Shown one piece after another: positions 6,381-12,662 of a DNA stretch of 64,000 nt; position 1 is the stretch's first letter; every line of letters starts with the position of its first letter. A model generated the notes under the pieces. It was not told the DNA's origin. It saw only the letters and a list, made by a program, of their open reading frames with translations, and did no database searches. The DNA is from Salinicola acroporae. Its GTDB lineage: Bacteria > Pseudomonadota > Gammaproteobacteria > Pseudomonadales > Halomonadaceae. The stretch is taken from NCBI RefSeq assembly GCF_003206615.1, contig NZ_PZJW01000004.1, positions 248,001 through 312,000 on the forward strand, read 5' to 3'. The position numbers and the translations under genes were made by a program.

Positions 6381-7391
<1,011 letters not shown>

Positions 7392-7545
7392 CGCTCGGTT
7401 GAGGCGGAGATCGGCTGCCGGCGGGGTGCTGGTCGGAGTGTCATAGGATCGAATCGCGATCGGTACTGGAGCCGGTCGCCGCTTTCCGGTATCATTTCGC
7501 CAATTTGGCCGGGCCAGTGCCGCAGGCAGTAGAGATTCGCCGCAG

Positions 7546-7638
7546 ATGATGCAGCAACAGGACAATGAGCGGGATGAAACCGGTTTTCCGGATTTCGTCC
7601 CGCTTTTTTACGACCTTGCGGCGGCTCCCGGTCAGTGA
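7546..7638 (+). CDS. putative carA leader peptide (30 aa)
   Basis: Two adjacent ATGs (7546, 7549) open a 30-codon frame that ends with TGA at 7636-7638. The translation begins MMQQQDNERDETGF and continues through PDFVPLFYDL. The frame runs straight through the terminator hairpin at 7569-7603 and its T-run, so a ribosome close behind RNA polymerase would keep the hairpin open. This is the arrangement of the enterobacterial pyrBI leader, where UTP level sets coupling. The ribosome site (AGTAGAGA) is weak and translation is unproven; the call rests on geometry and on position 64 bases before carA. Confidence 0.55.
   Translation: MMQQQDNERDETGFPDFVPLFYDLAAAPGQ
7569..7609 (+). terminator. carA leader attenuator-like intrinsic terminator
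   Basis: A long stem (left arm GCGGGATGAAACCGG, right arm CCGGATTTCGTCCCGC, one bulged A and one G-T pair, TTTT loop) is followed at once by six Ts (7604-7609). It stands about 94 bases upstream of the carA start, inside the predicted leader peptide frame. It could simply end dapB transcription, but a terminator immediately before a pyrimidine/arginine-regulated gene and embedded in a small ORF suggests attenuation. Confidence 0.85.
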
Positions 7639-7702
7639 ATGAAGGGGCGTGATGCTACACCTCGACGCAATTTGTTGATGACCAGTTAAGGAGGATGTTG
7701 CC

Positions 7703-8860
7703 TTGAACAGACCCGCGATACTGGCTCTCGAAGACGGCAGTGTATTTCACGGCGTCGCGATCGGAGCCGATGGGCAGACCAGCGGGGAGGTGGTCTTCAA
7801 TACCGCCATGACCGGTTATCAGGAAATTCTCACCGACCCCTCCTATACCCGCCAGATCGTGACCCTGACCTACCCCCACATCGGCAATACCGGCATCAAC
7901 GTCGAGGACGTCGAGTCGCACCGCATCTGTGCCGCCGGCTTGGTCATTCGCGACCTGCCGCTGATCGCCAGCAATTTCCGCAGCACGACCACGCTCTCCG
8001 AGTATCTGGCTTCGCAGAACGTCATCGGCATCGCCGACATCGACACGCGTCGCTTGACGCGCATCCTGCGCAGCAAGGGCTCGCTCAACGGGGCCATCCT
8101 GGCCGGCGACGCTGCCCGGGGCGATGACGCCGTCGAGCGGGCGCTGGCGGAAGCCCAGGCCTTCCCGGGCCTCAAGGGGATGGATCTGGCCAGGGAGGTC
8201 TCCTGTGAGTCGGTCCACGAGTGGACCGAGGGCGAGTGGACGCTGGGCCAGGGCTATGCTGACACCACCCAGGGTGAGCGCCCGTACCACGTGGTCGCCT
8301 ACGACTACGGGATCAAGCACAACATCCTGCGCATGCTCGCCTCGCGTGGCTGCCGCCTGACCGTGGTGCCGGCGCAGACGCCAGCCAGCGAGGTGCTGGC
8401 GATGAATCCGGACGGCGTATTCCTGGCCAACGGGCCGGGTGATCCCGAGCCCTGCGACTACGCCATCAGTGCAATCCGCGAAGTGCTCGAGACGGATGTC
8501 CCGGTCTTCGGTATCTGCCTGGGTCACCAGCTGCTGGCGCTGGCCGCCGGCGCCAGGACGGTGAAGATGAATCATGGTCACCACGGCGCCAACCACCCGG
8601 TTCAGGATCTCGACAGCGGGCAGGTGATGATCACCAGCCAGAACCACGGTTTCGCGGTGGACGAGACCAGCCTGCCCGATAACGTGCGTGCGATTCATCG
8701 CTCGCTGTTCGATGGCACCCTGCAGGGCATCGAGCTGACCGATCGGCCGGCGTTCAGCTTCCAGGGTCACCCCGAGGCGAGCCCGGGGCCGCAGGACGTC
8801 TCGCCGCTGTTCGATCGCTTCGTGACGATGATGCAGGCCCGCCAGCGGGATGCGGTATAA
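7703..8860 (+). CDS. carA: carbamoyl-phosphate synthase small (glutaminase) subunit
   Basis: 385 residues from a TTG start at 7703; AAGGAGG (7688-7694) stands 8 bases upstream and the frame begins with the conserved [14 protein letters not shown], so the rare start is well supported. The N-terminal CarA domain fills about residues 1-150 and the class I glutamine amidotransferase domain the rest, with the triad Cys272 (FGICLGHQ), His356 and Glu358 (GHPEA). It releases ammonia from glutamine for CarB in the cytoplasm, feeding pyrimidine and arginine synthesis. The upstream leader suggests transcriptional attenuation. Confidence 0.97.
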
Positions 8861-8959: not shown

Positions 8960-12185
<3,226 letters not shown>

Positions 12186-12193
<8 letters not shown>

Positions 12194-12662
12194 AGTCCCG
12201 ATGACCGTCCACGGCGAGCAGGCCTTGCGCCAGGAGCTGGAGCAGTTGAAGGGCGTCGATCGCCCCCGGGTGATCAGCGACATCGCGGAAGCTCGCGAGC
12301 ACGGCGATCTCAAGGAGAACGCCGAGTATCACGCCGCCCGCGAGCAGCAGGGTTTCATCGAGGGGCGTATCCAGGAGATCGAGGGCAAGCTGTCCGCGGC
12401 GCAGGTCATCGACGTGACCAAGATGCCGAAGACCGGCAAGGTGATCTTCGGCGTGACGGTCGAACTGCTCAATCTCGAGACCGACGACGAGGTGCGCTAC
12501 CGAATCGTCGGCGAGGACGAGGCCGACATCAAGGCCGGCAAGATCTCGGTCACCTCGCCGATCGCCCGTGCGCTGATCGGCAAGAGCGAGGGCGACGTGG
12601 TCAACGTTCGCACGCCGGGCGGGGACGTGGAGTACGAGATCTCCGGCGTCGAGCATCTGTGA
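12186..12662 (+). CDS. greA: transcription elongation factor GreA
   Basis: 158 residues, the standard length, from the ATG at 12186 ([10 protein letters not shown] aligns with the E. coli start; AGGAGC lies about 8 bases upstream). The N-terminal coiled coil with the [20 protein letters not shown] segment carries the acidic tip residues that enter the RNA polymerase secondary channel and stimulate cleavage of backtracked RNA. The C-terminal FKBP-like domain ends with [14 protein letters not shown]. It overlaps carB by 8 bases; a carAB-greA operon is also known in Pseudomonas. Confidence 0.97.

Follow-up and report, generated by a model that had tools for sequence, protein, structure and literature searches.

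The leader of the carA-carB-greA operon in Salinicola acroporae carries a strong intrinsic terminator and, upstream of it, an unusually conserved putative start site, and we favor, with about even confidence, a reading in which UTP-sensitive initiation would be combined with an untranslated attenuator. The usual account of pyrimidine attenuation rests on pyrBI and its translated leader. The carA leader looks outwardly like that system, with a small frame lying over the terminator, yet it fails most comparative tests of translation, while the start site adjoining the frame would carry the other half of the pyrBI logic.

Locus and comparison set

The leader was analyzed in a window of 64,000 nt of S. 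acroporae DNA (genome size, 4.37 Mb), in which dapB is followed by a 311-nt gap and then by carA, carB, and greA, all in the same direction. CarA of the window is 94% identical to CarA of S. salarius, and the order carA-carB-greA matches that described for Pseudomonas (PMC4997734); the region is likely the 5' control region of a carA-carB-greA operon, with these elements:

6549..7391, + strand: dapB, the upstream gene, start codon unsettled (Pfam DapB_N, 137 bits; DapB_C, 156.6 bits)
7688..7694, + strand: carA ribosome site AAGGAGG (sequence)
7703..8860, + strand: carA, TTG start (Pfam CPSase_sm_chain and GATase)
8960..12193, + strand: carB (Pfam CPSase_L domains)
12186..12662, + strand: greA, closing the likely operon, start codon chosen for the scan (Pfam GreA_GreB_N and GreA_GreB)

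The comparison set consisted of carA upstream stretches from 226 loci in all, made up of 80 loci from named genomes together with loci of the same genus, family, and order. TTG stands at the aligned carA start in 199 of the 226, as it does in E. coli carA, and the duplex energy of the carA ribosome site has a median of −10.2 kcal/mol in 108 relatives. A three-codon mini-frame, ATGACCAGTTAA (window positions 7678 to 7689), ends at the carA ribosome site and is kept in several Salinicola; at locus L004 the leader frame continues into this mini-frame, with its stop at +85.

A conserved terminator hairpin precedes carA

The original prediction placed an intrinsic terminator before carA at 7569 to 7609, and both folding and covariation bear it out.

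7567..7605, + strand: terminator hairpin (fold, −28.6 kcal/mol, z −6.7; covariation; model R1, 50 bits)
7604..7609, + strand: terminator T-run (sequence; five T columns invariant in 47 aligned leaders)
7610..7616, + strand: ACGACCT directly after the T-run (alignment; RCR, often then ACC, in many relatives)

Shuffled sequences fold at −10.9 ± 2.7 kcal/mol, and none of 200 reached the value of the hairpin. A built-in terminator pattern scan found none here, perhaps because the stem has a bulge. Across the order, the 47 aligned leaders (hand-chosen from a list of 48, with L181 excluded for its long loop) include changes of both partners in 11 of the 13 stem pairs; 93.0% of their stem cells pair, and two-sided changes occur in 82 stem cells against 27.6 ± 6.7 in shuffles. 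The carA-leader hairpin is real, beyond chance, and widely kept in relatives.

A model built from this alignment (R1) gives the window 50 bits, a score to which the window copy within the model contributes, and matches only the window in its own genome at an E value of ≤0.01, under filters that cost some of the weak matches. Extended to 229 genomes of the class under the same filters, the search found 30 with a match; only 6 of the 30 loci fetched, window included, have carA in the stretch, so that outside the order most weak R1 matches are other hairpins. Within the family, a pattern for the window-type hairpin was matched in 108 of 121 loci. The 13 others show either small changes (L167, L168, L170, and L214) or a different stem (9 loci of genera g3, g4, g18, g22, and g24), where a hairpin and T-run are visible by eye. 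A generic hairpin finder returned the AGCGRG form in 199 of the 226 loci, a count that includes a few misplaced ones, at least two of which (L058 and L076) are another hairpin further upstream; among the 27 loci lacking this form, 13 show a hairpin and T-run by pattern, of which six duplicate other loci, and the remaining 14 show none. The 5' arm is near-fixed, with columns 8 to 12, which the search pattern left free, conserved at 92 to 97% over 19 genera (columns 0 to 7 were partly set by the pattern).

The sequence after the T-run (RCR, often then ACCTG) is alike across families though present only in read-through RNA; its pairing with the leader gives a z of ≤−1 in 10 of 18 Salinicola rows and a mean z of −0.59 over 93. 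Hairpins of related look (e.g., AGCGGGA..TCCCGCTTT) without a long T-run also stand before carA in Chromatiales-like and betaproteobacterial loci (L061, L076, L078, L081, and L083), in two of which (L078 and L083) the hairpin comes almost directly after the putative start.

The homologous leader of Pseudomonas

At the homologous position in P. syringae DC3000 lies the small RNA P32, the 3' end of which falls by 3' RACE just after the terminator, and the results are consistent with a single promoter serving both P32 and carA (PMC4997734). In the same work, reporters rise when the stem-loop is broken or removed, a full-length fusion is lowered by uracil and raised by arginine, and P32 and carA are unchanged by quantitative reverse transcription-PCR with arginine plus uracil (PMC4997734). 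Work cited there reports the P. aeruginosa stem-loop as required for the pyrimidine response and predicts carA attenuation in P. syringae pv. phaseolicola; the source of this prediction is presumed to be PMC2965389, in the available text of which carA occurs once. Attenuation by this element of the carA leader is thus known in kind.

The Salinicola and Pseudomonas leaders share the operon order, an intrinsic terminator between promoter and carA, an alignable hairpin, AGCGGG..CCGCTTTTTT and then RCAACCTG, and a lack of good ribosome sites at leader starts (best, −4.3 kcal/mol; 18 leaders). The two-sided changes and the R1 score, window copy included, argue that the terminator between the putative car promoter and carA is homologous to the attenuator of the Pseudomonas type. 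The leaders differ in a strand pair, CTTTAGTG..CACTA, seen by eye near the 5' end in Pseudomonas, in the distance from a −10-like hexamer to the following T-run (5 to 6 nt in Pseudomonas, 8 nt here), and in the company of PyrR, as described below.

Among Rfam families, none passes its threshold on the window leader. P31 (RF01676) reaches 19.1 of 40 bits on the opposite strand, and Xoo2 (RF02241) gives a weak match of 20.2 of 45 bits. In 5 of 18 scanned loci, all Pseudomonas or Stutzerimonas, P31 overlaps the homologous hairpin on the opposite strand, with above-threshold minus-strand matches at L022:1920-2001, L024:1919-2001, L025:1906-1983, L034:1923-2002, and L055:1905-1981; either P31 may have been assigned to the wrong strand, or it may represent an antisense RNA made at a terminator that works in both directions. 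Xoo2 has one match over 185 genomes of the class, below its cutoff, and the available part of the paper naming it yielded no link to carA. No Halomonas carA leader appeared among the top matches listed in open full-text papers, and carA was not found in the accessible text of a paper on Halomonas terminators (PMC9271916).

The small frame across the hairpin is most likely a by-product

The 30-codon double-ATG frame of the original prediction does cross the terminator, with its stop 64 nt before the carA TTG at 7703, and overlaps a second frame that was absent from that prediction.

7546..7638, + strand: 30-codon frame, most likely without function as a leader gene (ATG ATG at 7546 to 7551, TGA at 7636 to 7638; translation, MMQQQDNERDETGFPDFVPLFYDLAAAPGQ)
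7565..7642, + strand: second overlapping frame, 25 codons from ATG 7565, no ribosome site (−1.9 kcal/mol; translation, MSGMKPVFRISSRFFTTLRRLPVSE)

In attenuation of the pyrBI type, a ribosome on the small frame would trail the polymerase closely at low UTP and so block folding of the terminator. Every one of the 18 Salinicola leaders has an ATG frame that extends at least to the hairpin (15.9 under the null; 18 of 200 shuffles), and in 12 of them the frame passes through it, no more often than chance would give (12.6 ± 1.6 in shuffled leaders, with 12 attained in 151 of 200 shuffles); FVPLFYD is the reading in 8 leaders, 4 have a different frame, and the ATG frame of the other 6 stops upstream of the stem or within it. 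With ribosome sites ignored, ATG frames pass through the hairpin in 68 of 93 family leaders against 47.0 ± 4.2 in shuffles (0 of 200), or in 11.9 of 19 genera against 9.0 ± 1.4 when weighted by genus (2 of 100). This family-wide excess is the main result against reading the leader as untranslated. Part of it comes from a single ATG that the Halomonas group carries at columns −10 to −8 ahead of the hairpin, and these columns are conserved at 54 to 69%, versus 92 to 97% for stem columns 8 to 12; with GTG and TTG starts added, ribosome sites again ignored, the count is 80 versus 73.4 (12 of 200 shuffles). A carA leader peptide was reported earlier for P. aeruginosa (Kwon 1994, cited in PMC4997734), whereas the authors of the P. 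syringae study found no leader start codon (PMC4997734).

Set against the excess of ATG frames are the tests of frame and ribosome site. Matched hairpins in the 18 Salinicola leaders are 34 (1), 35 (12), or 36 (5) nt long, so that the frames through them differ; the lengths fall in all three residues modulo 3 (5, 1, and 12 of 18), and such variation by 1 to 2 nt is found within other genera as well. The original prediction had named loss of the frame in relatives that keep the hairpin as a refutation, and this is the pattern found. When the ATG of a frame through the hairpin is required to have a ribosome site of −4 kcal/mol or better, 2.3 of 19 genera qualify, against 2.6 by chance, and at −6 kcal/mol or better 0.0 against 1.2; with GTG and TTG included, the values are 5.0 versus 6.5 and 0.1 versus 2.9. 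If anything, car leaders are poor in translated starts. The window frame has a ribosome site of −2.9 kcal/mol, compared with −10.3 for E. coli pyrL, and the best ATG frames in the family, in the Cobetia group, reach −5.8; two starts with stronger sites belong to frames that stop short. The window leader also lacks a U-rich tract, with a T fraction of 0.11 and a longest T run of 2 (no TTT), versus 0.31 and 5 in the pyrBI leader, and any TTT is present in 23 of 108 leaders. Finally, the ATG stands 20 to 23 nt before the hairpin, which would leave a ribosome little time to load.

Downstream of the start, the likeness to E. coli pyrBI/pyrL is that of an intrinsic terminator crossed by a small frame; ribosome site, U-rich tract, and frame conservation, the marks of a translation-coupled attenuator, are all missing here. 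We consider pyrBI-type attenuation unlikely and, despite the ATG-only excess, set the leader peptide aside, and with it the proposed role of the small frame as a translated sensor. Read in three frames, the 5' arm of the hairpin is open in two and the 3' arm in all, and the 30-codon frame is most likely a by-product of a G+C-rich leader with a hairpin open in most frames. What stands of the proposed likeness to pyrBI is the terminator itself as an attenuator, on the strength of the homologous Pseudomonas leader.

A putative UTP-sensitive start site upstream of the hairpin

Two elements that the original prediction had not mentioned lie upstream of the small frame and, with the terminator, would define a short RNA.

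7490..7495, + strand: −10-like hexamer TATCAT of the putative car promoter (TANNNT-8 nt-TTT conservation)
7502..7508, + strand: AATTTGG, putative start region and candidate site of UTP-dependent stuttering (reiterative transcription) (conservation; pyrBI layout)
7502..7609, + strand: predicted terminated leader RNA, about 107 nt (start motif and terminator)

A sigma-70 scan of 6900 to 8100 gave no promoter and no −35 match, and we infer the car promoter upstream of the leader from sequence comparison. All 108 family leaders in which the hairpin pattern matched have TANNNT, exactly 8 nt, and TTT in this order, and in each the TTT is directly preceded by A or G, then A. A looser pattern allowing 4 to 14 nt gave a spacing of 8 nt in 101 of 101, and a scan with another hairpin finder recovered the start motif in 104 of 107, against 5.0 expected from shuffles; the three misses (L126, L155, and L174) are loci for which that finder recorded no hairpin, and all three carry the motif. 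Weighted by genus over 19 genera, A stands at 100% in the two columns before the TTT (itself part of the pattern). The layout of a UTP-sensitive stuttering promoter, at least three T right after the start at a fixed distance from the −10 hexamer, is thus present at the putative start position.

Elsewhere the spacing changes or the motif is lost. TTT follows the −10 hexamer by 7 nt in the Marinobacter group (ten loci, six named Marinobacter and four with the same leader; L015 and L016 were counted through a wrong match) and, in the scan, in 3 of 5 Betaproteobacteria, and in all 29 leaders of Pseudomonas or Stutzerimonas its distance from a −10-like hexamer is 5 to 6 nt. Five further genera of the family (9 loci) lack the motif at the promoter, the 1 match among them lying away from the promoter position, and the other loci of the order have it in 13 of 36 cases, near chance (6.9 expected). 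The motif is therefore not essential for car control.

Two E. coli promoters have a similar layout. That of pyrBI reads TATAAT-GCCGGAC-AATTTG, with a short 7-nt spacer and AATTTG at the start. In carAB P1, which serves the same gene, TTT follows CAGAAT (−10-like, by reading) by 7 nt, compared with 8 nt after TATCAT here, and the start is different, GTTTGCC. At P1, stuttering on the U-run gives unextended GUUUUn products, less at low UTP; a broken T-run abolishes control, A starts stutter more than G starts, and the effect is reported to act at low UTP levels of 0.9 to 50 µM (PMC6245113). Attenuation is not involved in control of carAB P2 according to the same review (PMC6245113), and the literature searched, in the portions available, describes no attenuator for P1. 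The UTP control that the original prediction had proposed is plausible as far as UTP is the signal, but it would act at the start site, without a ribosome as intermediary.

The start could also be a protein site, since many leaders have a near-palindromic CCAATTTGG (of 103, 65 have CC on the left side and 100 have GG on the right), as an operator for a DNA-binding repressor lying over the start site would be. We regard an operator as very unlikely: conservation is asymmetric, and it is AATTT at a fixed −10 distance that is invariant, while the lengths of the A- and T-runs and the center of symmetry vary among the leaders compared. A narrower promoter-plus-start pattern, TANNATN6AATTTG, has two matches in the genome, one here and one in a stretch with an integrase-like frame (so named from reading its translation) and not at a pyrimidine gene; this second match, too, speaks against an operator.

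What could switch the terminator

PyrR was not found in the S. acroporae genome (best score, 26.9 bits against a cutoff of 140), nor in any of the 5 family genomes searched. Of 12 genomes searched in all, 5 encode it (193 to 232 bits), none of which belongs to the family, and two of the genomes with a Pseudomonas-type leader (L267 and L268) encode it, at 229.7 and 231.9 bits.

An RNA-only switch would have an upstream strand pair with the base of the 5' arm of the terminator. A strand like CGCTTGTTG, complementary to CAACAAGCG at the hairpin base, is found in 48 of 93 leaders, with duplex z scores of −0.2 to −4.6, and the same pair can be read by eye in L204, L205, and L211 and, shorter, in L219. 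None of the 18 Salinicola rows has the strand, nor do those of Chromohalobacter, Cobetia, and g19, so that such an antiterminator could hold at most for the Halomonas-Vreelandella side. Of the 18 Salinicola duplexes between a candidate strand and the hairpin base, 16 were no better than shuffles (z above 0), and no compensatory changes were seen in the CGCTTGTTG/CAACAAGCG pair. The conserved strand is a plausible antiterminator on the Halomonas-Vreelandella side; as the general switch, RNA pairing of this kind seems to us quite unlikely. Examples of leaders with a conserved CGCTTGTTG (or CGCTTGTAG) strand complementary to the terminator base are L005, L010, L103, L131, and L149.

For Salinicola, then, a switch was sought and not found, either as PyrR in the S. 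acroporae genome or as an antiterminator in the 18 leaders. Together with the want of a leader gene, this would suit a passive terminator that stops transcripts arriving from dapB and holds car expression at a fixed level, any UTP control being exerted only at initiation. Such a terminator would be expected before the car promoter, but it sits downstream of the putative one, and the response of P. aeruginosa to pyrimidines reportedly depends on the stem-loop (cited in PMC4997734); we judge a passive role fairly unlikely. With PyrR not found in the genome, no competing strand seen in Salinicola, and a possible antiterminator only on the Halomonas side, we commit ourselves to UTP-sensitive initiation with an untranslated attenuator.

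Proposed mechanism and implications

According to this preferred reading, transcription would start at or near A7502/A7503. On the AAUUUGG start, as the layout resembling pyrBI and carAB P1 suggests, polymerase would stutter on the U-run when UTP is plentiful; the short products would not be extended, and initiation would therefore fall as UTP rises. Polymerases that escape would meet the terminator at 7567 to 7609 and end in part as a short leader RNA, as has been shown in Pseudomonas, the leader being most likely untranslated. Counting against this reading are the excess of ATG frames, the loss of the start motif in five genera of the family, the failure of the scan to list a sigma-70 promoter, the near-palindrome at the start, the low UTP levels at which E. 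coli P1 is reported to stutter, and the unchanged P32 and carA signals in P. syringae. In Halomonadaceae, the start site, the 3' end, and the expression pattern that together make up such leader control are predicted from sequence and by analogy.

A broader conjecture, which we put forward as quite improbable in its entirety, is that Halomonadaceae car leaders sense pyrimidines twice, with neither ribosome nor PyrR. The first sensor would be slippage on A/U-runs at the invariant A(n)T(n) start, and the second a sequence-constrained terminator with read-through set by RNA pairing or by the slipped 5' end, a logic comparable to that of pyrG but read through UTP. The sensors would differ by lineage (a 5' hairpin in Pseudomonas, the CGCTTGTTG strand in Halomonas, and none seen in Salinicola), while the terminator and start site would stay fixed.

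The carA leader of Salinicola thus has the outward form of pyrBI, and the part of the pyrBI logic that its relatives conserve would be the one at the start site. It also counsels caution, in that an open frame over a G+C-rich terminator should not be read as a leader peptide.
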